Assembly (NCBI RefSeq): GCF_026151205.1
Contig: NC_087078.1
Location: forward strand, 3,737,675-3,801,674
Length of the DNA: 64,000 bases
Direction: 5' to 3'
Source: Bolinopsis microptera
Taxonomy: Eukaryota; Ctenophora; Tentaculata; Lobata; Bolinopsidae
The notes under the pieces were generated by a model, which saw nothing but the letters and a program-made list of their open reading frames with translations, did not search any database and was not told the origin of the DNA. The translations under genes and the position numbers were made by a program. Positions 4,301 through 23,595 of this stretch are shown one piece after another. How positions within the stretch are numbered: the stretch's first letter is position 1; the number at the start of each line of letters is the position of its first letter.

Positions 4301-6813
4301 TACTAAGTGATAACTAGGTGGTAACTAGGTGGTTACTAAGTGATAACTAGGTGGTTACTAAGTGATAACTAGGTGGTTACTAAGTGATAACTAGGTGGTA
4401 ACTAAGTGGTAACTACCAGTGGAAATCTAGTCAATTCAAATATCTGCTTGCTTGGTACTCATGGTCGATACAATCACAGCCCAACCAACTATACTTGATC
4501 AGACCGATTCACCTACATGTGCATACGCCATCTGGGAGCCGTCAGTTGAGCTTGCTCTCTGACTCGTGGGTTGAAAACATCGTGTACAATACTTCGTGAG
4601 TAGTACAGTACTTCACAACGATAACCCGCCTCCCCAACCAAATCTCTTAAATTAATAACATTACACACAGTATGCACACTCACAAATATGGCAGTGAGTA
4701 TCCCAGCTGCATATAATGCAGTGTACTAATAGCAGCAGATATGAGATAACAACACGATTGCTTACTGATAGGCGTGCAAGAAATTCCTGAGCTGAATAGG
4801 GCCGGTAGCTCAATTGGTAGAGCACCAGGCATGTAACTCGGAGGTTGGCGGATCATACCCGCCCCGGCACTATGCCGGCCCATGATTTTCCGAATCGCTT
4901 ACCAGTGGAAATCTAGTCAATTCAAATATCTGCTTGCTTGGTACTCATGGTCGATACAATCACAGCCCAACCAACTATACTTGATCAGACCGATTCACCT
5001 ACATGTGCATACGCCATCTGGGAGCCGTCAGTTGAGCTTGCTCTCTGACTCGTGGGTTGAAAACATCGTGTACAATACTTCGTGAGTAGTACAGTACTTC
5101 ACAACGATAACCCGCCTCCCCAACCAAATCTCTTAAATTAATAACATTACACACAGTATGCACACTCACAAATATGGCAGTGAGTATCCCAGCTGCATAT
5201 AATGCAGTGTACTAATAGCAGCAGATATGAGATAACAACACGATTGCTTACTGATAGGCGTGCAAGAAATTCCTGAGCTGAATAGGGCCGGTAGCTCAAT
5301 TGGTAGAGCACCAGGCATGTAACTCGGAGGTTGGCGGATCATACCCGCCCCGGCACTATGCCGGCCCATGATTTTCCGAATCGCTTACCAGTGGAAATCT
5401 AGTCAATTCAAATATCTGCTTGCTTGGTACTCATGGTCGATACAATCACAGCCCAACCAACTATACTTGATCAGACCGATTCACCTACATGTGCATACGC
5501 CATCTGGGAGCCGTCAGTTGAGCTTGCTCTCTGACTCGTGGGTTGAAAACATCGTGTACAATACTTCGTGAGTAGTACAGTACTTCACAACGATAACCCG
5601 CCTCCCCAACCAAATCTCTTAAATTAATAACATTACACACAGTATGCACACTCACAAATATGGCAGTGAGTATCCCAGCTGCATATAATGCAGTGTACTA
5701 ATAGCAGCAGATATGAGATAACAACACGATTGCTTACTGATAGGCGTGCAAGAAATTCCTGAGCTGAATAGGGCCGGTAGCTCAATTGGTAGAGCACCAG
5801 GCATGTAACTCGGAGGTTGGCGGATCATACCCGCCCCGGCACTATGCCGGCCCATGATTTTCCGAATCGCTTACCAGTGGAAATCTAGTCAATTCAAATA
5901 TCTGCTTGCTTGGTACTCATGGTCGATACAATCACAGCCCAACCAACTATACTTGATCAGACCGATTCACCTACATGTGCATACGCCATCTGGGAGCCGT
6001 CAGTTGAGCTTGCTCTCTGACTCGTGGGTTGAAAACATCGTGTACAATACTTCGTGAGTAGTACAGTACTTCACAACGATAACCCGCCTCCCCAACCAAA
6101 TCTCTTAAGTGGTAACTAGGTGGTGTTGTAGTAAGAGAGTCAGGAAACAATGTCTAGGCTTCTCTGTAGGTAATAATTCCAAATAGTTGATGGTTCTAAG
6201 TCCACATAGTCACACTGGGATAATAAAATAAATTAACGTTAAGAAAGTTATTTTACGTACGCGATTTCATCTTTTGGGTCTGCATACTTTTTAATTATCG
6301 TTATTTTAGGTTTAGGTGATATGAAGTTGTCGTAATTCCCTCTCCATACGTCTACTGTACTCGATCTTTTGGGCTGTGCTGCCTAAGAAAGGGACAATAT
6401 TGTGTTTCAGAATAAAATAAAACCAATTTTGTAATTGCTCATTCTATTCTGGATATTTTGATGATTACGAGATGCTTATTTTGTTAATTAATGATAATAT
6501 TCTTTATTCCCCAGTTTTATTCTGGGTTTCATAGTGTAATGAAGGTTTAAAAATGTTAACTGCGGACGAAATTAACATTAGAAGAATGTTGGCTACATCT
6601 TGGTTGCAGTTATCATATTGATAAGCTGTGAAAATGTACCTAATGTGATCAAAATTATCTAATATCTGGAAGTTCTGCTGGAAAGAAACAGAAAGCACCA
6701 ACCTGCTTGCCTCCGAGGTTTCTCAAAAGGAGGGCCAAATTGTCAGGATCATTGTTTCTAAAGGGGTTCTCGAACCACATCACAAATTCACATGCTATAT
6801 TTACATATACCGG
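1396..6813 (-). CDS. Unrecognised seven-exon gene with an RVxF-like motif
   Basis: Seven minus-strand exons join in one frame: 6703-6813, 6261-6382, 3333-3414, 3155-3216, 2994-3046, 2498-2800 and 1396-1682. All internal donors are GT (gtaagtg, gtacgtg, gtaaaat and similar) and all acceptors AG, and every phase agrees, which is strong evidence of a real gene. The visible product is about 330 residues and lacks its N-terminus. In order it has a segment with MWFENPFRNNDPDN, a basic stretch, a Cys-bearing segment (GDKCEAHSNCNGDCGTHG), a Thr-rich run, KKQVTFSDN, a CVNPNCG pair and a basic Pro-rich part. KKQVTF fits the RVxF docking consensus for protein phosphatase 1, but that alone proves nothing. 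The last exon is taken to a TAA at 1396; a donor near 1430 is possible instead. No family was recognised. The third intron from the 3' end of the visible gene aside, the long second intron (3415-6260) carries the tandem arrays described separately. Confidence 0.75.
3541..3957. repeat. CTAA-based tandem repeat
   Basis: Runs of CTAACTAA with higher-order blocks containing TTAATTAACTAATATAACTTACTAAA that recur about every 70 bp. Intronic in the minus-strand gene. Confidence 0.92.
4083..4412. repeat. 11-bp minisatellite (GGTAACTAGGT)n, left block
   Basis: Degenerate 11-bp units alternating GGTAACTAGGT and GGTTACTAAGT, about 30 copies. The 486-bp array interrupts it at 4415, and a short remainder (GTGGTAACTAGGTGGT) resumes at about 6107-6125. 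The larger array therefore sits inside this minisatellite. Confidence 0.9.
4799..4871 (+). ncRNA. tRNA-like segment, copy 1
   Basis: Has a 7-bp acceptor stem with one mismatch, a D arm of GCTC/GAGC (fitting an A box), an imperfect anticodon stem with loop CATGTAA, and a perfect 5-bp T stem GGCGG/CCGCC. Against function: position 33 is A instead of U, the anticodon stem has an A-C mismatch, and the T loop ATCATAC departs from UUCRANY, so the B box is poor. I read it as a tRNA-derived pseudogene or a SINE-like head. By position the anticodon would be TGT (Thr), which is unreliable. Confidence 0.4.
5285..5357 (+). ncRNA. tRNA-like segment, copy 2
   Basis: Same sequence as the segment at 4799-4871, one 486-bp unit later. 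Confidence 0.4.
5771..5843 (+). ncRNA. tRNA-like segment, copy 3
   Basis: Same sequence as the segment at 4799-4871, two 486-bp units later. The fourth, partial unit ends before this part. Confidence 0.4.
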
Positions 6814-7915
6814 CTAAAAATACAAGTTTTTAGTCCGATAGAACTAAAATCAAAGCGCCGAGAATAACAAGCAAATGAGAAAAGTAATCGTGAATGACAA
6901 GTCTTGTTGTACAGATCACGTGACCACGTGTATAACGGTAGCTGTTGTCTTGCTTAACAGGCAATTGATTTTAGTTATAGCTTCCAATCAATAGCAGTGC
7001 TCCATTTCATATACAAAACGCTCTAGTTTTTATATACGAGACAAAAGCAGCGGTGTATACAGTTTAGCGCTGCAAATGCTAAGTTGCAAAAAACAAACAA
7101 AGGATGCTCCTGAAAATGAATGGAACAATTTAACAATGACAAATTGTACGCAATCAGTTTATTTACTGCTGAATGAGCTATTGAGTGAATACAGTGGTCT
7201 CTATGACTAGTAGCCACATTATGGTTCATTGTAGTCAGAAATCCAATCCAGACTCTCTAGACTCTAGTCTTTAGGTTTTTAAAATTATCCACAATTCTAA
7301 TAATATATATTACTCACGGAATGGTTGATGACCTGGCTAGCTAAGTGTACTAATTAAAGGCGTTACATGTTAGTTGCATGATTGTACTACTCTAATATGG
7401 TACTAATATCTACTACAGCAGTCTGCTTATCTCAACAATTAGTTCACAGCTGATATATTCTGAATAAGTTAAAAGGGGTTTAAAGCTCGAAAGATACTAA
7501 CATCCGTGGTTTAACCGCAGAACTGTGTAGTTGATGTACAACAATCACAGAGGACAGAAAGAAGCTGGGTTTACAGAGCGCTATAAGTCAGCTTGTGGTA
7601 TTACCTGCATGTTATTTGTTGTAGGACTAACTATCAATAACTTCTGGTAATATCATCAATCATCATGAGGGACCCGCGCGCTAGGAATTACTTCTCACGC
7701 ATCAGCTGCTTTTGGTCCCATGGAAAAATATTGTTCCTAGCCGATATTATCAGCGCTCAAAAGTCAGTGGCTAAATATAATTGTATATAGTATTGCGGTA
7801 GTGATTTTCAATCGCCCGCTCTGAAAATCGAGTCTAAAAATCTATCTTCTCTTACATTTTTTGAGCAATAACCCTCAAACTTTTAGGATATGTTCTTAGG
7901 ATCAATATTGATATA
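6814..7915. other. No supported gene
   Basis: AT-rich DNA upstream of the first visible exon of the minus-strand gene. The missing 5' exon(s) of that gene or of the zinc-finger gene could lie here, but no exon with matching phase was found. Confidence 0.4.
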
Positions 7916-8753
7916 CCTTATCGGACCTTATTTGGACGGACATTACTTGAACGCTGGAGGCCCTAGCGTTCATCTTAATGTCCGTTCAAATAAAGTCCGT
8001 TCAATTAATGTCCGTCCATGTTAAAGTCCGTTGAATTTTTTTCAAAATTTGTTTCATTTCGAACTTTTTGTCCAGAATATTACAACAACTATTATATGAC
8101 AGCTTTTTAATTTCAGTCAATTTCAATAGCTATCATAAAAGTTAAACTAAACTATATCGTTGGATTAATAAAAACAAGGTATCATAAAATTTTAACAATC
8201 TGAATTGTAAATATCACATTATTGCATGATCACTATCTTGAAGTTGATCTTTGGCTTCTTCTACCTCCACATTTTCTATTACAACTGGTTGTCTGTCCAA
8301 CTCGTAGTCGTACCGGGCAATGGACGATCCCAACTGCTCTACTAGAGAGATACTTGAATGCCTAAAGTACAGCTTAAGCTTTATCTCTAGCCCCCCACTT
8401 GGTATAGGCGACCTTCGGTGGCTTAGCCTTATGTAAGCTACGATACCTTCTACCATACCACCCATCTCGATAAAGTAGAAGACAAACCGGGATATCTCCC
8501 TATAAGGTATGTGACCGACGGTATCTAATTTAGTCCTGTAGGTACCTTCGTACCTTATCTGCACAGCGCAAGATAGGCTTATTGTATGAAAAACATGGAT
8601 TTAAAATCATTTGCTAAAATTAAAAAAGCGTCAAAAAATGATGAAAAAAAATCGGATTTTTGATGGTTTTGATTGCCTTCTAGCGTTCATATTAATGTCC
8701 GTTCATAATTATGTCCGTTCAAGTAATGTCCGTCCAAATAAGGTCCGATAAGG
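7916..8753. mobile_element. TA-flanked TIR DNA element, copy 1
   Basis: Starts CCTTATCGGACCTTATTTGG and ends with its inverse complement, flanked by TA on both sides. Both ends carry repeated ATGTCCGTTCAA-type motifs just inside the TIR. A minus-strand open frame (8214-8564) shares most of its sequence with copy 2. No recognisable transposase domain, so it is probably a non-autonomous or decayed DNA transposon. It lies 44 bp before the first visible zinc-finger exon. Confidence 0.85.
8214..8564 (-). CDS. Open frame in TIR element, transposon-derived
   Basis: 116 codons inside the TIR element; the start is arbitrary. The segment from about LSHRRSPIP to the C-terminus (about 75 residues, including LVEQLGSSIARYDYEL and an acidic end DSDHAIM) is nearly the same in the second copy at 17385-17627. 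Two copies keeping the frame suggest descent from a real element-encoded protein. No catalytic motif is visible and I cannot assign a family. Confidence 0.4.
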   Translation of the reverse strand: MQIRYEGTYRTKLDTVGHIPYREISRFVFYFIEMGGMVEGIVAYIRLSHRRSPIPSGGLEIKLKLYFRHSSISLVEQLGSSIARYDYELDRQPVVIENVEVEEAKDQLQDSDHAIM

Positions 8754-8797
8754 TAATAGTATATTTAACAGCTTATATCTACTACTGTATATTTCAG

Positions 8798-11441
8798 ATC
8801 GTGACATAATTGATGTATGTGGAGGAATCCTGAAGGAGGGACAAGAAGTGATGAAAGTTCCTGGCCAGAGGAACCATAGCATAGCAAACCGTAAGGGAAA
8901 ATGTCCAGTCGTTAATGATTTACCCTTGCTAATTTAGATTTGGTAATCATGGTTTTTTTTAATTTTGAGATGATAAAACATAAAGAGCGAAAAATTTACG
9001 ATCGTTATTTTACCGCAATAATCATTAAGGTTGATTTTCTACTCATTTCAGTGATTGCCCAGTTATCACGACTAAAAAAAGAGCTGGCACCCTGTCCAGG
9101 GCTCTTCCCAAGTCCCGTCTCCTTCTTCACCACACCACTGCAGATGCCCCTCCCTCATTCAATCTCCCTCCATGATCGCTCCACCCCCCTTCCTAACATA
9201 TCTCTTCCATTAACTTACCCTAGACTTCCTGTTATCATCAGTACATCTAGTCTATCTCCGGCCTCGTGGCTCCAAACTGAAACACGGAACACAAAGGAAG
9301 CTGCTGAAAAATATGTTCAAGATGTTCAAGATGTTCAAGACAGTAATTCATTAAGCAACTCAACGAAGACCAATATCGAGGACAACCAAGTTGGATTTCG
9401 AAGTTTGTGCCCTGGTTTGCGCTCGCGTTATGGTACGTTCACTATTGATAACATGAAAGGTCTCCACATTTTGAAATTAAGTTTTCTCCGGTTTAACTGG
9501 TTTAAATCATGAATATCAGATTATCATACTGGTGCTCATACAAATCAGGATCTCTTTGAAGAACATAAATATTCCCTAAACATTATTTGAATCTGTTTCT
9601 CATTATTGCAGGGTCCCTCTCCCCTATAAATACGACTGCGTCCTCCTCCACAGCAACCACTGTTCTCTCTGACCAGACACCGGTATTTCTCACCACCCCA
9701 ACTGCAACCACAACTCTAAAGACCTCTTCAGGAACCGCTGTGGCGCCTCTAGCGACGGCCCCTCTGGGAACCATTGTGGCGCCTCTAGCGACAGCCCCTC
9801 TGGGAACCATTGTGGCGCCTCTAGCGACGGCCCCTCTGGAAACCATTGTGGCGCCTCTAGCGACGGCCCCTCTGGAAACCATTGTGGCGCCTCTAGCGAC
9901 GGCCCCTCTGGGAACCACTACAACAACACCCCAACAAGGAGCCACTCCTCACATTAACAAGATGATTGGTAGAACTCTGATAAGTAGTAACTCAGTCTGG
10001 TCACCCTATTTGAAAGAGAAGGAGACTAGGCATATTACAAAATCATGGGATGTTAGAATGACAGAAGGTAAGTAAGTTAGAACTAGGAAGTTATATAGTA
10101 TGAGCCTGGGATTCTAATGGTGAACCTGCAATTATTCAAGCTGTACACGTGACAAGTTACACGTGACAAGGTACACGTGACAAAATACACGTGACAAGGT
10201 ACACGTGACAAGGTACACGTGACAAGGTACACGTGACAAGGTACACGTGACAAGGTACACGTGACAAAATACACGTGACAAGGTACACGTGACAAGGTAC
10301 ACGTGACAAAATACACGTGACAAAATACACGTGACAAAATACACGTGACATTGATAACGGTGCTCCTGGCTCCAGTGCATGCATGTGTCACTGAGGATCA
10401 GGATATGCTGGATCTGTTTGTTGCCTCTTGACCTTCATCGCCCGGTATTTTCAGAATATCGTCCAAAATCAGAATCTCCTAGATACAACTACAATCTAAA
10501 AGACGAGAAATCGTTTGAGTGCAAATACTGCGACTACCAAGCTAAGCAGTACAATCAGTTAGGAGAAACAATAAGGGCTGGACACTATAGTTATAAATCA
10601 TAATTTACATGCCCCTGAATCCTTGAAGAAGACAAAACATTTGAAATAAGTGGTTATAATAACGCTTTAATCATTTAAATTGGTTACCTTATTTTCAATG
10701 TACAAACTGTGGTACCCCAGCTCGCCACTGTAGTATATTATTATTGGTAACATGTAACCATAGTAACATGTAACCAATAACCATGGTAACGATTAACCCC
10801 AGCTCGCCACTGGAAGACACACAGTGGAGAAAGACCCTACCAGTGCGGTATGTGCGACTATAGTGCGGCTCTTAAACACAATCTGGTTCAACATATGTGG
10901 AGCATACTGCCCGGAAGAAATACCAGGTTATTAAGCTGTTATTAATATTAGTTGACTTATTGATTGTAGGAAGTAGGAACATTGCTATATTTTACCACAA
11001 ACTGTAACTACTATTACTGACATCTTGATTCAAGAATTAGAAGTGATTATAACTGATTAACGCGGCTGGTGATGCACATTTCAGAAATCATGATAACTTC
11101 TTTGTCTGTTGATCGAAAGAACGAATTCACTTTTAATTTATTAACCGACTCATTATACCTCTCCTCCTACTGAACTACTTAAAAATTAGACAATTAACCG
11201 CTTATTTAATTAGAAACTAATTATTTAATTAGAAACCAATTAACAGTAACCACGGTGACCACCCCAGTGCTCAGAATGCGACTACTCCGCGACAAGACGA
11301 GACTACCTAGCAGCACACCGGACCCAGCACACCGGCTACAAGCCCTTCACTTGTCCACACTGCAGCTGGGAGACTGGACTGAAGAGCAATATGACACAGC
11401 ACATGAAACGGAAACACTCTGCTAAATCTGATGATGTGTGA
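8798..11441 (+). CDS. C2H2 zinc-finger protein (5' end missing)
   Basis: Exons 8798-8890, 9052-9432, 9612-10067 and 10455-about 10562, then 10803-10926 and 11268-11441. The first four join by GT-AG sites in phase. The N-terminal part is Ser/Thr/Pro-rich and holds five copies of a 12-residue repeat (APLATAPLGTIV). Fingers follow: FECKYCDYQAKQYNQL... completed by ..HWKTH in the next exon, then SGERPY-QCGMCDYSAALKHNLVQH, CSECDYSATRRDYLAAHRTQH, and CPHCSWETGLKSNMTQHMKRKH, ending KSDDV-TGA. SGERPY matches the TGEKPY-type interfinger linker. A nuclear DNA-binding role is inferred from the family. Odd: the two junctions between finger exons cannot be joined in frame with GT-AG; see findings. The second finger also lacks a clear final His. 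Confidence 0.8.
9745..9915. repeat. 36-bp in-frame coding repeat
   Basis: Nearly five copies of a GC-rich 36-bp unit (12 codons) inside the third zinc-finger-gene exon, so copy-number changes would not shift frame. The opposite strand is also open through it (MVPRGAVARGAT), an artefact of the repeat. Confidence 0.95.
10144..10350. repeat. 14-bp minisatellite with CACGTG in each unit
   Basis: About 15 copies of TACACGTGACAAGG or TACACGTGACAAAA in an intron of the zinc-finger gene. Each unit contains a palindromic E-box CACGTG. Confidence 0.95.
10715..10818. repeat. Duplicated acceptor region (16-17 bp direct repeat)
   Basis: ACCCCAGCTCGCCACTG occurs at about 10714 and again at 10796, 82 bp apart, enclosing short GTAACATGTAACCA repeats. 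The second copy contains the acceptor and start of the fifth zinc-finger exon. Confidence 0.7.
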
Positions 11442-13369
11442 TTTTAGTTCCACTTTATGTGTGTGGCCACGTGTTTGATCACGCGCCACGTGTTTGATGG
11501 TTATCACGTGCCGGAAAGATCACGGGATACAATGATCATATTCAGTTATATCCAGCATTGGTGGACTAAAAGTGGAACATGTTAAATCATTTTATTAGTA
11601 AATAATTATTGATTTAAATTTAATGTCAGCCTTTTGTGTTTACTTATTTCGTGTTTAACATTTGATTTAAGGGTTATTGTTTAAGACCTCTTGATTATAA
11701 TACATCATGACTTTATGAATGATTTGTATCGATATTCTCCGTTAAATCGATCATAATGTTAAGTTAGTAAGTTAATGGAAATCTTTAGTATTAGACTTTA
11801 GTATTATACTATTAGTATTACTGAGTTACTGATTAATCACAGATTTTTTAGTTAGTTACATTTTTTATTCTTTATAGGTATTATAATTATATTTTTTTTG
11901 GGTAATCTTGTTTTAGACCTGTTGGAACTTCAGAATTTTTATTATTTTACTTTGTATTTAAATAGGTGAATTTTTGATAAGTTCAGCAATATGAGTTCAT
12001 TTATTTTGACTTACGAAATTTTAGAAACCCATGGTAGTAAACTTAATTTTGCGAAAAACTTATAAAAAGTAAAGCTTCCAAAAGTCTGATCTCAAAGTGG
12101 CCCTGAAAGTTTACACAATATAAGCAACATAATGCGTGGGTTAAATCTGAAAGTAAAACCTAATTGATTTGATTAATTGATTTAATCAATTGATTTGATT
12201 AATTGATTTAATTGATTGAATTATTTAATTGATTAATTACTCTCGTGTCTCGTAGCTCATTTCAATATTTCTTATCATATTGGCTAAGGAATTTTTATGT
12301 TATAAAACCTCATAAACCCTAGCGATTTTGCAAATTATTAATGAACTTAGAACTAACAGTTTTCTTCTGATTATGATTTAAAGTTTAAAAAGTAAGTAAA
12401 ATTTAGTCACTGGAGGAGCAAAGTGCAAAGAAACTGCCACAAACGTACACTGGTACTAACTGCTACAAACTAGCACTAACTGCTACAAACTGGCACTAAT
12501 TTTGGATTTCCAACTATATAATTGCATTGTTACCGTAACTTTGAATGAGTGGATGCGGTGGAATAATATACATCTCCCTCTATATACTTATATAGTAGAC
12601 ATTACATAATATGATGCCGTTGATGGTTGATGCGATATGCACCGATCATTATATAATAGAAGATATGGACTTCTTATAAGATATCTGTGTTAAATCTGAA
12701 ATATAATCTGTAAATGAAACCAAAACAGTAGTAGTTATAATTATTTGACGATGTCAATTCATCGCAGCTCGGCGCGGCATGAGTAACGCATCTCGCCGAT
12801 CTAGCGAGAAGCATAATTGAGTGCGCGGCGCGGCACAGTAACGCATCATGCCGACAGTAAGCCGCGCGTGCCGACTGGTAGGATGGTTTTTAGCGCTAAT
12901 TTCGCGGGCCAGCACAAAATTCTTGAAACAAATGCGTATTGCAAGTAACCTTCCCTTGGTCTAATTTTAACAAAAATTGGTAAGCTTACTAATATACTTA
13001 CAAGGAAAGTGTCCGAAAAATTTAAAGCATATCCAACCATTACACATTATGTTACAGCTAAAAGCAGCGTATTTTTTCCATTTCCCCCATTTTGATCACT
13101 ATATTAACTAGAACTCCAATATCCACCAAATTTTTCGGACAGTTGTAAAAGCCCTAAGCTATTGGAAGGTCTTCATCAATTTTCAGAATGATCTCATTCA
13201 AGGAACCGAAGATATGACAGGATAATACGACAAAAATCAATGAATTTCGTCAAATTACGCAACTTTTACACCTACTTTTGCTCCAAAATCCGCGCACCAT
13301 CAAAAATTAATTTTTTGATGGATGAAAATATTGTACACATCCAATCATTGATGATCTTAAAATGAAATA
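11442..13369. other. Non-coding; 3' flank, dispersed repeat, GC-rich patch
   Basis: No exon supported. The 3' flank of the zinc-finger gene has three CACGTG sites at about 11465-11506. A dispersed repeat (separate entry) covers 11958-12600. At about 12765-12880 a GC-rich patch of CGCGGC-type repeats stands out from the AT-rich surroundings. Confidence 0.5.
11958..12600. repeat. Dispersed repeat, uninterrupted copy A
   Basis: The left part (11958-12161) matches 15142-15346, and the right part (about 12296-12600) matches about 16911-17109, with about 90% identity by eye. Between them is only AATTGATTTGATT-type low-complexity DNA and a short unique stretch. No TIR or long ORF seen; element class unknown. 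Confidence 0.75.
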
Positions 13370-14083
13370 TTAACTGAAAATATTAATTGTTAACATACCT
13401 GCACCAAATGTCATTATTTCTTTCATGTGAATGCATGCTTTGACGGCGTAGCTGCCAGGGTCATGTCTCACCGTCAGCTTCACTTCATTGCCACACTTCA
13501 GATGACAAGGAATTCTATACGTTTGGCCCTCTATAGTCAAAACAGAACTGATTTCGAGAACTCCGCAGAGATTCTCAATTCCTGTATCTGTGTTGACTAC
13601 AAATACTTTCGTATCTTGCATACGAGTAGCACTAGCACTCAAGGTGAGATGACCCTAGATAATCACCACTCCAAAGAAGCAGAAGACTTCATCAAACTCA
13701 TTTGAACCAAAAATCAGTGTTCCATCCACACTGAGTGTGAGATTTTGTTTCCAGATCACCGTCAGTAGCATGCTCTGCCTTATTTGCATTGAAAGTGCTG
13801 CTTTGGGAAACTGATGCAGGTTCAACTTTCCCTGAAACATTTTAGAGTGTTAACTTGCGCTATAAAGGACTTTTATCTTAGGGAGCAGTTGTTAAATTCA
13901 GGATTATATTACCACTTCTATAACGAATCCTTCAGTGAAACGTATCAACAGTGAAATAATATAAGGTTCTCTCAAACGTTTACCTGCGATAGTAACATCA
14001 TTTTCCACCATCAAGATAATCAGAAGATGAAGGAGGATGTTCCGATTTGTCCCCATTATAGGTCGAATAATTCGATTGAACAT
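13370..14083 (-). pseudogene. F-type lectin (F5/8C fucolectin-like), disrupted
   Basis: Exon 1 (13984-14083) encodes a hydrophobic signal peptide: MGTNRNILLHLLIILM after an upstream Met, ending ACTATCGCAG/gtaaacg. Exon 2 starts at 13831 in matching phase and reads GKVEPASVSQSSTFNANKAE, then a DGD and a KSHTQCGW segment, which is the start of a fucolectin-type domain (SQSST...A.DG....SHT...WW). This frame stops at TGA 13698-13700. The adjacent frame carries the expected next part (FDEVFCFFGVVII), stops at TAG 13655-13657, and continues in the same frame as LTLSASATRMQDTKVFVVN ... KACIHMKEIMTFG, matching the domain's C-terminal half. So one frameshift and one in-frame stop break it; the Arg-containing loop that binds fucose falls at the TAG. 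Either a pseudogene or sequence error. Family members are secreted carbohydrate-binding proteins. Confidence 0.62.
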
Positions 14084-15403
14084 CAAGGATGTTCAGAAGC
14101 ATGCAAAATAAAACGTAGATAGGTTGTATTATGCCCGCCTACAACTAGAGCACCCTCTTCCCTGACCAAGTGACCACGTGACCAAGTGACCACGTGACCA
14201 ATTGTAACCTATGCTACCTGGGTCACGTGACCAAGTGTAACCAATGTTACGTGGGTCACGTGTTAAGCCCAATTTAACTCTTTAAAGACAGTCTTGAGCA
14301 TTGAGCTATCCTTAGTAAGGTCTATTGTCGATTAGATGAATAATGCAATAGAAACTAGGTTAGTCGCTGGGTTAGCCGTCCGACAGTCTTATAGAACTGT
14401 AAAGTTCCGTAAGACCGTTTGACGATAAACTACCTATTTCAATTTGGGGCATCTCTTTATTCATTAGGTAGCTTGCGGAAGCCGGGGGATCGCGGTCTTT
14501 AGCCTTGACAAAATGACTTTTTACTGCATCATGACTTATACTGCAAGCATGATACTGCCTACCGCATAAGTAAGGCAGCCGTAGAGAGCGCATAATCGAC
14601 ACGAATCTACACACCAAAAGACAGTACTGTATAATGGAAAATAACTCTTTTTTTGCACGAGTTAATATGGAGAAGAGGTATGGAATCACTTGATCTGATA
14701 CTGAGGATATCAAACTTTACTGTATGATACTGTATATCGTAGACTCAACTCGAATCTTCCCTCACCACTGCTTTCGTCTCCCTAGTGCTGACTGTTTTAG
14801 CTGCAGTGGTCTGATCTTCTAGGTCAGCTTATTACAAGACGTGCGAGTAGCTCGTTGTTTAGGGGTCGTACACATATTATTACGTTATCACTTTTTGAAT
14901 TTTTACCCCCCCCCCCCCCGACCCCTCTGTAATCAGTTTTACACATAGCTATTGTGCCAAAATTACACTAGCGTTATCATTTGAAAACCCCCCCCCCCTC
15001 CTATTGTATTTAGGTACGTACGTACGAACGTTTTGGAATTTGGTACGTTTTGGTGAGTTTGGCAGGGCATGCTCAGGACAACTGCATCGAGTGTTTCCTC
15101 CTCCAGCTCAGCATTGAGTTATCGTTTGTTGGAGTGGTGGATTAAATAGGTGAATTTATAATAAGTTCAGCAATATGTGTTCATTTATTTTGACATACGA
15201 AATTTTAGAAACTCGTGGTAGTAAACTTAATTGTGCGAAAAACTTGTAAACAGTAAAGCTTCCAAAAATCTGATTTCAAATTGGTACCTGAAAGTTTACA
15301 CAATATATGCAATAAAATGCGTGGGTTAAATCTGAAAGTAAAACCTTGGCCCACTACACTTTTAACACTAGCTTATTTATTGTCTATTTCTCTTTGTTTC
15401 CAG
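14084..15403. other. Non-coding: E-box cluster, poly-C, repeat copy B left half
   Basis: 14165-14272 holds repeated GACCACGTGACCAA and GGTCACGTG motifs. A 113-codon minus-strand open frame (14372-14713) has no recognisable content. Poly-C runs lie at about 14906-14919 and 14989-14998, and a TACGTACGTACG run follows. The left half of the dispersed repeat is at 15142-15346. Confidence 0.5.
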
Positions 15404-17109
15404 TAACCACCTGCATTTTAACTCGACATGGATTGGAATATGCCCATAAAAAGGTTGTTCCCTCCTCTCAACCTGCCATTCAGACACAACTTTCTGTGTG
15501 GACAGATATACCCACCGGTACGTTAAATGTCAGCTTACTAACCGTGCACTAGATTTAGTGTATACCTAAAAGTAATAATATTAAATCTGTGCTGGGCTGG
15601 TTCTCATAAATCCAAACTAAATCCAAATAATTGTGAGTCAATGCTTGTCTGTCGTTGTGTTAGGAGCTTTGAATATGCTTTACTCTAATATAAATAGTGG
15701 AAAAGGTTAACTTTAGTCGAGGTTTCAAGTCTCTAGTAAACTAGTGATATGACGCTTCATATTAACAGTTGATAGACGGCAACGAGATACACAGAACATC
15801 AAACTACGAGCTGAGAGATGACGATGTTATTTTGGTAACCTATCCTAAGTCAGGTTAGCAACCTGTTTGGAGCCATCTACTTAGGACGTCCGCCAAAATC
15901 CCAGATTTTCAGACCACCCCCGGACCCCCTCCCCCTGTCCGGGTGTGTCCGAATTTTCAAAACCATCTCCCCCCAACTCAATTATTCATTGTTAATAAAA
16001 TTCAAAGAGTTGAAATAAAATTTAAAAATTTAAAATAAATGGGACTTTTTTGTTAATTCTGCCAAAATTCCGGACTTCCAGATTTTTAGAAACCACACCC
16101 TCTCCCTGTCCGGATTTTTCGGAAATTACAAAACCGACCTCTTCCTATTTGCTGGACGTCCTAACTCCTAAGTAGTTGGCCCCTTTGGTTATTTTTATTT
16201 ATTATTTAAATTTTCAATGGCCTTCCTTAAATTACCTCACAAAAATCATTTCCAGTCGAACACCATCAACCAGATAATATTAATAATTTGTAACTAATTA
16301 ATACTTAGTTATTAATTAACTTATAAACAGGGACTCTATGGGTACAGCAAATACTGAAATGTTTATACGAGAAGAACGGTGTGAACAAGGACAGCAGGAT
16401 TTCACTCAGAAACAACCTTTCCCAGGCAGTGCCCTGGATTGAGCTGTTAGATATTGAGGTACTGTAAACAGTTACTTAACCTCCATATATAATGAAGGCA
16501 CAGTTTTTAACCTCGATATGATTGAGGCACAAAAACTTGTGTGATAGTTACTAGCACAAGTCACTTTATCGTGGGTTTTTTCCTTCCGCATATTTGAAAT
16601 GTTTGAAATTTAATGCAAGCGCTATCATATAATGCACCTGCTTTGTCATTTATGATGAAATCTATTGATCCCTTGTTTAAACAGGAATTTAACGCTATGA
16701 CATCGCCCCGAGTTATGACAACACACGAAACATACAATAACTTAGCCTGGAGACCCGGTACTAAGACTAAGTACATCTACCTAACCAGAAACCCTAAAGA
16801 TGTTCTGGTCTCTTACTTTCATCACATGTCCGGCTATAGGTACTCATTCAATTAATTGTTTGATTTAATTAATTGATTTATTTGATTGATTTGATTGATT
16901 AATTGATTTAATGTTATAAAAGTTAAAACCTCATAAACCAGCGATTTTGCAAATTTTTAATGAACTAACAGTTTTCTTCTGATTGTGATTTAAAGTTTAA
17001 AATGTAAGTAAAAGTTAGTTTAATTTCGGATTTCCAACTAATTGTTACCGTATCTTTGAATACGTGGATGTGGTGGAATAATATACATCTCCCTCTATAT
17101 CATTATATA
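15142..17109. mobile_element. Dispersed repeat copy B carrying sulfotransferase exons
   Basis: 15142-15346 matches the left half of copy A and about 16850-17109 matches its right half. In copy A these halves lie about 130 bp apart; here about 1.5 kb of sulfotransferase exons and introns separates them. The right border coincides with the insertion of the TA-flanked TIR element at 17110. Whether the repeat captured the gene piece or two repeat copies flank it by chance cannot be settled from this window. Confidence 0.55.
15404..16839 (+). CDS. Sulfotransferase (Sulfotransfer_1), partial gene
   Basis: Exons 15404-15517, 15776-15853, 16331-16458 and 16685-16839 join in phase. The product reads ...VWTDIPTDGNEIHRTSNY, RDDDVILVTYPKSGTLWVQQ, then SPRVMTTHE and YIYLTRNPKDVLVSYFHH. 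YPKSGTxW is the 5'-phosphosulfate-binding loop and RNPKDVLVSY the 3'-phosphate-binding segment for PAPS, so this is a sulfotransferase that moves sulfate from PAPS to a hydroxyl or amine acceptor; TTHE supplies the catalytic-His region. Missing are the N-terminal start and the C-terminal part (the G-x-x-G-x-W/K-N region). The last exon ends with GT but the dispersed repeat begins about 10 bp later and no further exon was found. No stop or frameshift in the four exons. Most likely a gene fragment, unless remaining exons lie far downstream. Confidence 0.85.
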
Positions 17110-17936
17110 CCTTATCGGACCTTATTTGGACGGACATTACTTGAACGCTGGAGGCCCTAGCGTTCGCGTTGATGTCCGTTCAAATAAAGTCCGTTCAATT
17201 AATGTCCGTCCAAGGTAAAGTCCGTTGAATTTTTTTCAAAAATTTTTCCATTTCGAACTTTTTGTCCAGAATATGACAACTTTTTAATTTCAGTCAATTT
17301 CAATTGCTATCATTAGATTAAACTATATCGTTGAATCAATAAAAACAAGGTATCATAAAATTTTAACAATCTGAATTGTAAATATCACATTATTGCATGA
17401 TCACTATCTTGAAGTTGATCTTCGGCTTCTTCTACCTCATTTTGTCTTACAACTGGTTGTCTGTCCAACTCGTAGTCGTACCGGGCAATAAACGATCCCA
17501 ACTGCTCTACTAGAGAGATACTTGAATGCCTAAAGTACAGCTTAAGCTTTATCTCTAGCTCCCCACTTGGTATAGGCGACCTTCGGTGGCTTATGTCAGC
17601 TACCATACCTTCTACCATACCACCCATCTCGATAAAGTAGAAGACAAACCGGGATATCTCCCTGCACGAAAACCCATTTGATGAAGATGATATGTGATAT
17701 TAGATAATGATCATGTACACATATTTTAACATTTTTACTTATTATAGACTGCTTTTCTTGCTTAGTGTATGAAAAATGGATTTAAAAATAATTTGCTAAA
17801 ATTAATAAAACGTCAGAAAAAAAGTTGAAAAAATTCGGATTTTTGATGGTTTTGATTGCCTTTTAGCGTTCATATTAATGTCCGTTCATAATTATGTCCG
17901 TTCAAGTAATGTCCGTCCAAATAAGGTCCGATAAGG
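17110..17936. mobile_element. TA-flanked TIR DNA element, copy 2
   Basis: Same TIR as the element at 7916-8753 (CCTTATCGGACC...), TA on both sides, about 830 bp and close in sequence. It keeps repeated GTCCGTTCAA motifs near both ends and a shortened minus-strand open frame at 17385-17627. Confidence 0.87.
17385..17627 (-). CDS. Open frame in TIR element copy 2
   Basis: 80 codons, nearly matching the C-terminal 75 residues of the frame at 8214-8564. A few residues are missing near VADISHRRSP compared with copy 1, where VAYIRLSHRRSP is read; the frame is kept. Function unknown. Confidence 0.4.
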   Translation of the reverse strand: MGGMVEGMVADISHRRSPIPSGELEIKLKLYFRHSSISLVEQLGSFIARYDYELDRQPVVRQNEVEEAEDQLQDSDHAIM

Positions 17937-20196
17937 TACGCCTTTAATAATAAAGATTTTTCATTCGAATTTGAAAAATTTGGACCTCGCTGATAGGTGA
18001 CCTGGTGACTCTAGCGCTGCATGGAATGGCACTATTGTACTTGTAGCACTTTCTTAGTCATGATAATAACGTTCGACTTATCTCGTGCGGAAGATTTAGT
18101 CAACTATGTGAGGGGGGGGGGGGGGGGGGGGGGTTATGTGGTAAAAATTACTTGGTCAGTGAATCTTCGAGGAACTCATGCTCAACATTTCATTGAGCTT
18201 AAAAATTATGGTATAATGGCAGAGGCTGCAGTACCACAACCGTCGAAGATGTTAGCCAATAATCACTGAGCCCCCCCCCCCCCCCCTCTCTCTCTCTCGG
18301 AGCGTTTGCTAAGTTACCCCCCCCCCCTCTCGGAGCGTTTGCTAAGTGACCCCCTCTTTCATACCAACAACAATACAGTGTGTAGTACATACACGCCTCA
18401 CACAAAATAGTTTCGCTGTAGCTCTTGGTTCAGCTAATTAGTGCTGTTAACCTCACGTAATTGGAATTATTCTCGTCAAATGTTTTGACTGAGCTTATAT
18501 TTCCTTTAGGTTCATGTTGAATACAGCGTTACTGTATTGTTACCTGTAATGATACCAGTTACCTGTTGAGTTGAGTCATTTAACACGTTTTGTTTACTGT
18601 CGCATTCTTGAGAGCATGACCATTGTACACTAAATCAATTTGAGATGCCTGACATTGTTTAGCGGCTAATTGTTGATTGTAATGTAGCTGCTCCTCGCAA
18701 GCACCGAACATACTGGCAAATTGTACAATTTCTAATCCTACACAAGAACATATGTTTTGTTAAACGTCGATGATAAATATATTTTTTCCCGATCCATGAC
18801 TCAAAGTGCCGAAGGCACAAAAGAGTCAAGGACAAGGGTTAGCGAACGAGGTTTTTTTTGTATATGGTAGCTTTGCGACCGTACCTGCGAGCGACCGTAC
18901 CTGCCTGCACACACTGTAATCGCCCACGTGACTACCTGCGCAAAGTTATTTTGCGGAATAATCCGAATTAGCTAATTGTTGGCGCGCGGCGCTGAACTGA
19001 CCAAGTACATTGTTAATTTCACCATGTACATATCCCACTAGGCACTAATTGATAGCATACTATTATTATTTTGAGTTACTTATACTATTTTGCACACATC
19101 CGTGTCGGGTGTCAGGTTGCATAAACAATAAGCATATGGTTTTTTAAAATATACACGATTTTCAAATTCAATATGGAATTAGATTAACTTGGTGGCGCTC
19201 GGCCTGTCACTTCGCCATATCTGCATACTTATAAACAGTAAAAACTGGGGTCCCCAGGTTGTATAGAAAATGATAAAATACGCCATCACGGATCGGGAAA
19301 TTGAGCGGCCATGCACAAAAAAAGCGGCCGCATTTCTTGTTTATTTTATATATTTTCAGTAAAATTTAATGAAGTGTTACTGAACGTTTTGTCATCAGGG
19401 AGCTAGAAAGAAATGAGCTTATCATTATAATAAGTGATTTATAAGTGGTTGATACACTGTACTCCACACCGTCCGTATCAGTGGTATAGGTGGAGTATAC
19501 GTGGTAACAATAAGCTGTAAAGCTGACTCAGACTGAAGTAATGTATCCTGGCAATTATCACGTATTCTAGTTCCTAGGCAACCCGTATCTTATATCAACC
19601 CGCTAATATTTCTCTTTGTGTTACTTTCATTTCGCTGTACTCAGTATTGTTTGTGTTAGCTTACCTCTATCTCGCTGTGTCAACAGCTTGTATACTAGTA
19701 TTTAGGGTGTTAACTTTAACTGAACCTTAGTGTTCAAATAGTATAGAAGCTTGTAATTGGTGCGGTCATTTGATCACATATTTACGTTCATAATTGAAAT
19801 ATTTGTTTGATCATATTAGGTCGATTGGTTCGTGCTTCTTAACATGCAACAAATATTATACTCCATTTGTCCATCTTATTGTGTTCTTGCTTCGTTTCAT
19901 TCACCACAATACCATAACACACTACAGTACATTGGCAAAGCTTTACAAGTAGAGAGAGGGTAGGTAGCTTCTAAAAAGCTAACTAACATACTAGAGTTTA
20001 ATTAATTAATTAATTAACATACTATATTAGTCAAACTAAAGAATTACAGTGAAGACATGACAAACCTGAAGTTGACAAAGTTTTCAATGCACATCTTGTT
20101 TCAATACATAACACTAGTTTTGTTATACTGAGACTGCTGACATTTTATACAAAACACGTCTCCGAACTGTTACAGTATTGTATTGAGCAGACCGAG
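17937..20196. other. Non-coding; G22 and C16 tracts, possible MITE
   Basis: 22 G at 18112-18133 and 16 C at 18271-18286, followed by a twofold GGAGCGTTTGCTAAGT repeat. A possible short TIR element spans 18786-19300. No exon supported. The C-terminal exons of the sulfotransferase were looked for here and not seen. Confidence 0.5.
18786..19300. mobile_element. Possible small TIR element
   Basis: TTTCCCGATCCATGA at the left is matched by its near inverse (TCACGGATCGGGAAA) at the right, 515 bp overall. Just inside the left end is a hairpin GACTC..GTGCC-GAA-GGCAC..GAGTC. No clear target-site duplication. Confidence 0.35.
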
Positions 20197-20660: not shown

Positions 20661-21094
20661 ATTTTTACTGATTTGTTTTCTGTTTTGATTATTGTCGTGA
20701 TACTCTTCACTTTATGGCTGTTTGCCAATCCCCAGGGCTGCATGAGGGGTTTTTGAATATAGCCAGGGCTGTACTGGACTGTTCGTTAACAATTATTAAT
20801 ACGAAGGACTTTAGTTTTTAAACAAAAGCAATGTTGAAGAAATAAACACGATACAAATTGTGTTATCGTTTATAAAGTTATAAGTTATTCAGAAACCGAG
20901 TAAGGAGGTGCGGCTACTGATGAGAAGCCTCATTAAAGTTTATTTGGGTTAGAAACGATATCTGGGTCGACACCCTCGCACAAGATTATTTTCAATTTTC
21001 TTGTTGTGTTCCACAACAGTTCCACAACTGTTATCGTTTATAAAGTTATAAAGTTATTAATCCCGCTATAATATTATCGTGCATTACTATTAGA
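20661..21094. other. No supported feature
   Basis: AT-rich sequence between the inverted repeat and the 2.5-kb TIR element. A short direct repeat of TTATCGTTTATAAAGTTATAA occurs at about 20863 and 21032. Confidence 0.4.
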
Positions 21095-21096
21095 TA

Positions 21097-23595
21097 TGGA
21101 CACGTTCATTTGAGTTTGAGGATATTGGTAAATATAAGTGACCCTATTAAAAGGCACAGTGTAGTTGACTTTGTCACACTATGAAATTACACAAACCCTT
21201 GATGGTTAGGATAATCGTCTCATCCTCTAGGCTAACTTTGTCACTTAACGATATCTTAATCAGCTGATAAGATATCGCTTAAATACGGCCGGCACGGAAA
21301 TGGTTACATTGTCACACTATAAACATGTGACGGAGTAAATATGGACCCCTTACTGCCGTTTTTGACCAAATTTTTGAGTGTCCAGTTGATTGGATGGGTA
21401 CATATGACCATTACCTACATATTTGACGAGTTTTTTCGTTAGATGGTGCACTCAGGTTTACTCTGTCACACATTTAAGAAAACATGTGAAGAATGTTTAG
21501 GGCACCCTGATAAGCAATGCTGAGTAGTGTAGGTTTATTTGATGGCCTGGAAGTGCTAGGAATTGTTATTATATCATATAGTCGTAAGGAATTAAAACAC
21601 AGAAGGCACAAACAAGTTTACTTTGTCACATAATCTTGATGATATCTGAACATGTGTGAAATTGAACAAATAATGATATACCAGCTTAAACCCCTTATAT
21701 TACGTACTATGGATCAAACAAAACTGCTAGTACCACGCACCAGTCACATAAATCATTATCGGGTGGTAATATGTTAATAGTGTCACAATTAAACTACCGC
21801 AACATGGTCAAAAATAGGGTAATTTCGTCACAAAAAATTATTATAACTCTGTTAGCTCCTTGCTGGCAAAATAACTAGTTCATTGATGATAAAGTTACAT
21901 AGTATTCTAATAGAGGTATAGCTCTTCAAAATAGGGGCAAGACATGTTTACTTTGTCACATCAGTTATTATACGAGTTAGGTAATCGTCATCAGATTAAC
22001 AGATCTTTTTCGTAGTTTGGATCGATTAATATAGGCAATAAAGCATCATATGCCAATTTTAACACACTATCTTGATATTGTTGGGGCAGGGAAAGTTAAT
22101 TTTGTCACATTTTCAGCGTTTTTGACAAATTAATCTAAAATTGTTAAACTTGAGCTCTGATGTTCTGGACAATATTCGACCAATCGTTTCTGAAAGAATG
22201 CTGAATTCTTATAGAGTTATAGATCTTCAAAATAGAGGCAAGACATGTTTACTTTGTCACATCAGTTATTATAAGAGTTAGGTAATCGTCATCAGATTAA
22301 CAGATCTTTTTCGTAGTTTGGATCGATTAATATAGGCAATAAAGCATCCTATGCCAATTTTAACACACTATCTTGATATTGTTGGGGCAGGGAAAGTTAA
22401 TTTTGTCACATTTTCAGCGTCTTTGACAAATTAATCTAAAATTGTTAAACTTGAGCTCTGATGTTCTAGACAATATTCTACCAATCATTTCTGAAAGAAT
22501 GCTGAATTCTAATAGAGTTATAGATCTTCAAAATTGGGGCAAGACATGTTTACTTTGTCACATCAGTTATTATTAGAGTTAGGTAATCGTCATCAGATTA
22601 ACAGATCTTTTTCGTAGTTTGGATTGATTTATATAGGTAATAAGGCAGCCTATGCTAATTTTTACACACTATCTTGAAATTTTTGGGGCAGGAAAAGTTA
22701 ATTTTGTCACATTTTTGGTGACTTTAACAAATTTAATCTAAAATTGTTAAACTTGAGCTCTGATGTTCTGGACAATATTCTACCGATTTTTTTCTGAAAG
22801 AATGTTGAATTCTAATAGAGTCATAGAATATATAGATCTTCAAAATAGGGGCAAGACATGTTTACTTTGTCACATCAGTCATTATAAGAGTTATTATAAG
22901 AGACTATTTCATTCTATAATCATTGTTTTTAACCTATTTACGATTTCGTATCATTTTTTGTGACAATGTAAACATCAACTGATCTTAACTTGCATCAACT
23001 ACATTGTCATCATGTAAAGTTTTCCCGCCTTTCAAACCAAAATCGGATATAAATAATTCGCCCAAAATTTAAAATTCCATATATTGTGACAGAATTAACC
23101 TCATTTCCCAATAACCAAGTGCCTGTATTAGCTAACTATTCGAAACAACATATGTTAGGGCTATGATTGGTAGATCAACCATCAAATAATGAGTTAAAAG
23201 GTTTTTGAGGACACCTCACAGTAGAATAGAGGTTTGGTATTCTGAGTGTGACAAAGTTACCCAAATATTGCCTTGTAACCGTTTGATCCGTGCCCTTTAA
23301 CCAATGTTGTATCATAATTGTTAGATTGACCTAATCTACTATATTTTAGGCCAAGTAATTATAATTAGACAACTGCAGTTAACTAAGTCACACAAAATGT
23401 GACATTTGAACCATTATAGTGCCTAACAACAATAGATTTTCTTTCTGAGCAGTGCATATGGGAGTATGGGTTACGTGGCTAATGTTCAGAACTTCTGAAC
23501 GTGCTAAGTTAATAGATGTCAAAATTAAGCCACTATCGTTGAAAACGCTATCATTTTTGTTTACCAATATCCTCAAACTCAAATGAACGTGTCCA
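21097..23595. mobile_element. 2.5-kb TA-flanked TIR element rich in TTTGTCAC
   Basis: TGGACACGTTCATTTGAGTT and the following 16 bp at the left recur inverted at the right end (about 36-bp TIR), with TA on both sides. The interior carries TTTGTCAC many times, mostly forward in the left two thirds and as GTGACAAA or TGTGACA toward the right. It includes three 302-bp tandem units. No ORF above 70 codons looks coding, so it is non-autonomous. It ends about 55 bp upstream of the ankyrin gene's ATG. Confidence 0.8.
21885..22900. repeat. About 302-bp tandem repeat, three copies and a part
   Basis: CTTCAAAATAGGGGCAAGAC begins units at about 21923, 22225, 22526 and 22838. Units differ by scattered substitutions. 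Each contains two TTTGTCACA motifs. Confidence 0.92.

Follow-up and report, generated by a model that had tools for sequence, protein, structure and literature searches.

We analysed a 64-kb window of genomic DNA (C7:3737675-3801674, where C7 is contig NC_087078.1) against the genome to which it belongs (264.65 Mb in 232 contigs). The forward strand of this window carries part of a sulfotransferase (SULT) gene, here called unit 2, which we delimited by comparison with an intact source gene elsewhere on C7, setting exon borders and phases by eye. The 5′ flank and 5′ UTR (15142-15427) are followed by the coding part of exon 1 with the start codon (15428-15517), exon 2 with its TYPKSG motif (15769-15853), exon 3 (16331-16458), exon 4, the last exon present (16685-16839), and the 5′ part of intron 4 with a TTGATT microsatellite (16840-17109), which a transposable element cuts at a TA. 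The four exons together match PF00685 (E 2.5e-27), in agreement with the sulfotransferase assignment of the original prediction. Read from the ATG at 15428, exon 1 gives MDWNMPIKRLFPPLNLPFRHNFLCGQIYPP and is in phase with exon 2; another exon 1 frame, beginning VTTCILTRHG, was discarded as out of phase. The start of the gene, previously described as missing together with the C-terminus, is thus present, and the C-terminus is indeed lacking: tblastn with source exons 5-7 found no match in the whole 64-kb window (best E 0.42, compared with 6e-33 for an exon 4 control), ruling out a SULT gene that continues downstream within it. The window copy accordingly covers only the first 111 of 255 positions of the Sulfotransfer_1 profile and has no full-length domain, whereas the source gene spans positions 1-250 of 255. 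Intron 2 of unit 2 also holds a dispersed repeat of roughly 320 bp (15866-16186) that is found in none of the source units A, B and C and has dozens of copies among the matches listed genome-wide, mostly 71-88% identical.

As originally reported, the SULT exons lie between two stretches that recur together near position 11,958: the left part of that repeat returns at 15142-15346 (92% identity over 205 bp, E 2e-78) and the right part, in main pieces of 87-91% identity, at about 16850-17109, restarting about 6-10 bp past the last donor, with exon 4 ending at 16839. The repeat had been taken for a dispersed mobile element, a Helitron or Pack-type element, that captured the exons between its halves. 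A genome search for all copies placed the left half at only five sites, two in the window and three on the minus strand at C7:11.163-11.183 Mb. The repeat is therefore not dispersed but confined to two loci on C7, both of which also carry matches to the right half and to the coding parts of the exon block. The parental locus proposed for the fragment was found there as an intact gene at C7:11.16-11.19 Mb, in which the same 5′ flank and intron 4 surround the exons. By this comparison, the left half is SULT 5′ flank and the right half is SULT intron 4; because both are the gene's own sequence, in the same positions at the source, they did not enclose or capture the exons, which rules out the repeat as a capturing element.

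Although the repeat halves do flank SULT exons, a mobile repeat is thus barely credible as an explanation, since the halves were found nowhere other than as the gene's 5′ flank and intron 4, and since the exon-less repeat copy at 11,958 corresponds by order to a source unit that keeps exons 1-3. Nor do the halves behave as unrelated intronic insertions in a full SULT gene running past the region, the outcome named as fatal to the capture idea, given that exons 5-7 are absent and the halves belong to the gene. What survives of the captured gene piece is that the fragment is displaced and lacks exons 5-7; its carrier had been misidentified, and its extent (15142-17109) had been drawn too small, as the SULT feature is part of a larger duplicated block. 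An apparent sulfotransferase captured by a repeat can therefore be an artefact of viewing only part of a tandem array.

We read the source region from C7:11158000-11188000, with one base (11168000) left out. On its minus strand lie, in order, a zinc-finger gene, unit C, a small opposite-strand gene, unit B, an insertion, unit A, a small gene and exons 5-7, an arrangement in which the SULT gene is tandemly duplicated. Unit C consists of the 5′ flank, SULT exons 1-3, a long insertion with retrotransposon-like sequence and an intron 4 remnant; unit B contains the 5′ flank, exons 1-4, the TTGATT microsatellite and intron 4, and unit A is built alike. Joined to exons 5-7, unit A forms an intact seven-exon sulfotransferase of 302 amino acids (PF00685, E 4.7e-56). 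The window copy is truncated and without exons 5-7; compared with it, the locus at 11.16-11.19 Mb is therefore more complete and probably older. The source thus presents three tandem SULT 5′ halves (5′ flank plus exons 1-4, one damaged) upstream of a single set of exons 5-7, and its units A and B differ at 1 of 152 residues. UGT1A is the familiar case of alternative 5′ halves on shared 3′ exons, and the source arrangement could allow alternative SULT 5′ halves in the same way.

The duplicated block in the window extends over 8.36 kb (8754-17109, forward strand) and is collinear with C7:~11.1668-11.1858 Mb on the minus strand, as established by genome searches and alignments. It opens with a copy of the C2H2 zinc-finger gene (8798-11441, forward strand) that lacks source exon 1 (this exon and the exon borders were read by eye) and, relative to the source, has a 4-base deletion in a finger exon at about 10901. 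Next comes unit 1 (11958-12594, forward strand), in which SULT 5′ flank is joined directly to intron 4 sequence, the exons having been lost; by its order in the block it corresponds to source unit C. A copy of the small opposite-strand gene (approximately 13370-14080, minus strand), which has no Pfam match and also lies between units at the source, separates it from unit 2 with exons 1-4 and intron 4, so that the order of the window block is the source order. The exon block, the zinc-finger segment and the intergenic segment all match the source collinearly, which identifies window 8754-17109 as a segmental duplication of the SULT/zinc-finger cluster lying 7.4 Mb away on C7 in inverted orientation. 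In other words, the interior of the block duplicates a stretch of chromosome that also exists at another place. Its identity to the source varies, at 99.3% (969 of 976 aligned bases) over 8755-9730, 95.8% (1737/1813) over 9990-11985 and 92.7% (2265/2444) over 12580-15135, with gaps uncounted and the minisatellite at 9731-9989 excluded. The difference between the 99.3% stretch and the adjoining 95.8% stretch possibly reflects gene conversion between the loci or a recombinant source haplotype.

In unit 2, relative to source unit A, 10 of 458 coding bases differ and the 152-amino-acid translations are identical, as against 48 differences in 883 aligned non-coding bases; units B and C differ from unit A by one and two amino acids, respectively (exons 1-3 for unit C). 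One of the ten coding differences was script-scored as non-synonymous, at codon 70 (TTA/CTT), where bases were changed one at a time; both codons encode Leu. The case for coding constraint is made from these raw difference counts. A freely drifting fragment should show amino-acid changes and none is seen, suggesting that the SULT gene probably lost its 3′ end only recently, measured against the time since unit 2 diverged from source unit A. Such a recent truncation fits a move from a diverged yet functional haplotype, and it fits a misassembly as well.

Both edges of the block are occupied by a TIR element of one family. The left border element (7916-8753, 838 bp, subtype I) is flanked by TA at 7914-7915 and 8754-8755, and the right border element (17110-17936, 827 bp, subtype II) by TA at 17108-17109 and 17937-17938; both lie on the forward strand in the same orientation and are complete at about 0.83 kb, with perfect 40-base ends when the TA is counted. 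The left element ends about 6.4 kb upstream of the SULT feature as first delimited, and the right one starts directly downstream of it. At the left edge, homology to the source begins at the TA beside the element end (window ...GATAAGG|TAATAGTATATTT; source ...GTTA|TAACAGTATATTT), and at the right edge it stops at the TA preceding the second element, so that both edges of the block match termini of a single transposon family with single-base precision. We estimated by hand that both edges of an unrelated duplication would fall within 2 bp of a TIR end of this family with a chance on the order of 1e-10, before allowing for other families and for clustering. TA also stands on both outer sides of the element pair, a match of only 2 bp that each single element shows by itself, as do 5 of 5 other copies.

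Outside these edges no similarity to the source was found. Beyond the right element, the window bears no resemblance to the sequence that follows in source units A, B and C, and source sequence beyond the left edge had no match in the window region among the 59 matches listed (40 of 245 candidates scored). The outer flanks of the window likewise returned no place in the source locus among the matches listed (best 40 of 2982, 2747 and 1684 candidates), a set crowded by dispersed repeats that could hide short or weak matches. At the source locus in the present assembly, neither edge carries a border element, and no excision footprint could be recognised there from the present sequence. We found no empty insertion site.

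The family to which the border elements belong is large, with 401 forward and 402 reverse exact copies of the 32-mer TIR (803 ends) in the genome, and its members are numerous and sometimes clustered among the ends listed. No full transposase was found for it. A 104-amino-acid open frame in the right border element (17385-17699, minus strand) is recognisable in other copies and has no Pfam match. A relative with similar ends on contig C1 (L064; L064 and L065 together cover C1:8091900-8098160) encodes a 74-amino-acid DDE_1 fragment (E 1.1e-6), DDE_1 being what we take to be the mark of pogo-like transposases. TA flanks were present in all five copies that we read, as expected of a pogo-like element with a TA target, and TA is given as the TSD of the Tc1/mariner group in the cited section of a published account (PMC7325037). 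The uniform TA flanks and the DDE_1 fragment of the relative together point to pogo-like border elements of the Tc1/mariner group.

Within the family, the right element represents an established subtype, with 12 other copies at 92-97% identity over positions 1-831 among the best 40 of 1669 candidates. At 85 columns, three subtype I copies have in common a base that the right element lacks, and at 81 of these the left element has the subtype I base; the two border elements are 94-97% identical across the 5′ part that they share. By these comparisons neither border element looks like a hybrid. Two further arrangements of family ends were considered and set aside. The interval C2:8021283-8031780, 10.4 kb from TIR to TIR, was a candidate autonomous element until the open frame in its left 6 kb (L062) was judged by eye to look retrotransposon-like; this 970-amino-acid frame (L062 2742-5654, minus strand) lies between opposite family TIR ends at C2:8021333-8031730. 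C1:8094500-8098160 was a candidate second composite, and was rejected on finding that elements 1 and 2 share their left flanking sequence and differ in their right flanks; to judge from these flanks, the C1 pair (C1:8091900-8098160) reflects a duplication of which one edge falls at an element end, and so differs from the composite proposed for the window.

The window contains several other repeats. A very homogeneous dispersed repeat at 21094-22000 recurs in at least 39 other places on many contigs at 95-100% identity and is adjoined by a 301-bp satellite at 21904-22893. A second homogeneous dispersed repeat, about 560 bp long (18778-19341), has dozens of copies at 89-99% identity among the matches listed. 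At 4414-6108, a 486-bp unit is repeated 3.5 times, and the 100% matches reported between its tandem units imply very recent tandem amplification.

We consider it slightly more likely than not that the block was transposed together with its two elements, as a composite insertion or macrotransposon. A haplotype of the source locus would have carried one element in intron 1 of the zinc-finger gene and another in intron 4 of the SULT gene; a transposase would then have used the outermost ends of the pair, or acted by alternative transposition with re-replication, and the whole 10-kb unit of element, block and element would have inserted into a TA site at 3.745 Mb. The product would be a 5′-truncated zinc-finger gene together with a 3′-truncated SULT gene consisting of the 5′ flank and four exons, the SULT fragment being cargo with no part in the movement. 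Because the source in this assembly has no element at either edge, both elements would have to have been on another haplotype or have since gone. The outer TA pair is only 2 bp long and each element has TA by itself, so these flanks are equally compatible with one composite move and two single insertions; the uneven identity (99.3%, 95.8% and 92.7%) means that a single event under a uniform clock needs gene conversion or a divergent source haplotype. We therefore describe the block as working like a composite insertion or macrotransposon rather than as an established member of that class. Duplication by a transposase acting on two neighbouring elements is known mainly from maize Ac/Ds, and Huang and Dooner 2008 is cited for the composite insertions and macrotransposons of that system.

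The same product, with elements in the same orientation at both edges and TA outside, would also arise if a source block with an element on each side had been excised (a circle carrying one element is one possible form) and had then recombined with an element already present at 3.745 Mb, so that an element copy was left on either side. The 94-97% likeness of the shared 5′ part would be enough for such recombination, yet a crossover inside the elements would tend to leave hybrids, and here the right element follows its subtype from end to end while the left keeps with the other subtype at nearly all diagnostic columns; a crossover near an element end would escape this test, in which three subtype I copies were compared. 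We judge this route unlikely. A false join is slightly less likely still: the block would be the other haplotype of 11.16-11.19 Mb with two polymorphic elements, misplaced at 3.745 Mb through a shared element. False joins are typical of repeats, and a repeat copy stands at either edge; an uneven identity of 93-99% with unchanged coding sequence would suit an allele of the source. Against this, the window is free of any N, the edge elements are non-hybrid and of different subtypes, long reads, if the assembly used them, would be long in relation to a 0.83-kb repeat, and unit 1 has lost all four exons while the source units have differently placed insertions.

The elements might instead have arrived after a larger segmental duplication, with recombination between elements, or other deletions, trimming both sides back to element ends. 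The abundance and occasional clustering of the family would make this easier, but it requires two independent trimmings that both stop exactly at element ends, and no remnant of source sequence was found outside the block in the window flanks among the matches listed; we hold it to be improbable. Composite movement between the two elements remains the reading that we prefer.

Pack-type elements and Helitrons move host gene pieces with their introns, and the window resembles them in this respect. A standard Pack-type carrier, as originally suggested, would hold its cargo inside one TIR pair, whereas the window cargo lies between two complete elements, each with both TIRs; a Helitron carrier, which would insert between A and T, is at odds with the block edges, where our examination of the edges alone found TIR ends at TA on both sides and no Helitron-like edge. 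In the bacterial composite transposons Tn5 and Tn10, genes are transported by the pair of same-family elements that flank them. The window shares with them a one-family pair and its cargo, and differs in that the block exists as one copy only and its cargo is under no known selection. Closest are the maize Ac/Ds composite insertions, which the cited excerpt presents as segmental duplications bounded by transposon termini of one family (PMC4270019), as is the window block; maize macrotransposons of 10.3 kb and 28 kb are described in a second excerpt, where the 28-kb one was seen to excise (PMC9910405). Unlike the Ac/Ds cases as portrayed in those excerpts, the window elements are non-autonomous and pogo-like with a TA target, lie in an animal genome, are both complete and have a current source that is element-free, and their movement is inferred from sequence. 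With Sleeping Beauty 'sandwich' vectors, a Tc1/mariner transposase can mobilise a stretch of over 10 kb that is framed by two complete elements (PMC4229213, PMC2874221); that pair is engineered, head-to-head and mutated at its inner ends, whereas the window pair is natural, in the same orientation and intact at its inner TIRs. Among the top-ranked open-licence PMC papers of our literature search, we found none that describes pogo-like elements forming a natural composite in an animal; Teratorn (PMC10175614) and KolobokP (PMC9587614) are called 'composite' in another sense.

Segmental duplications are usually put down to errors of recombination or replication, whereas the edges of this block suggest that a transposase of the cut-and-paste kind used a pair of nearby elements. 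We propose, tentatively and with slightly less than even confidence, that the block is a natural composite transposon in an animal. On this view, a multi-gene block of 8.4 kb would have been moved jointly by two pogo-like, non-autonomous elements that differ in subtype, taking with it a SULT 5′ half on which amino-acid constraint acted until lately, and element pairs of this kind may have duplicated genes repeatedly in this genome. Since the assembly contains 803 exact TIR ends, the frequency of gene duplications bounded by element pairs is directly testable.
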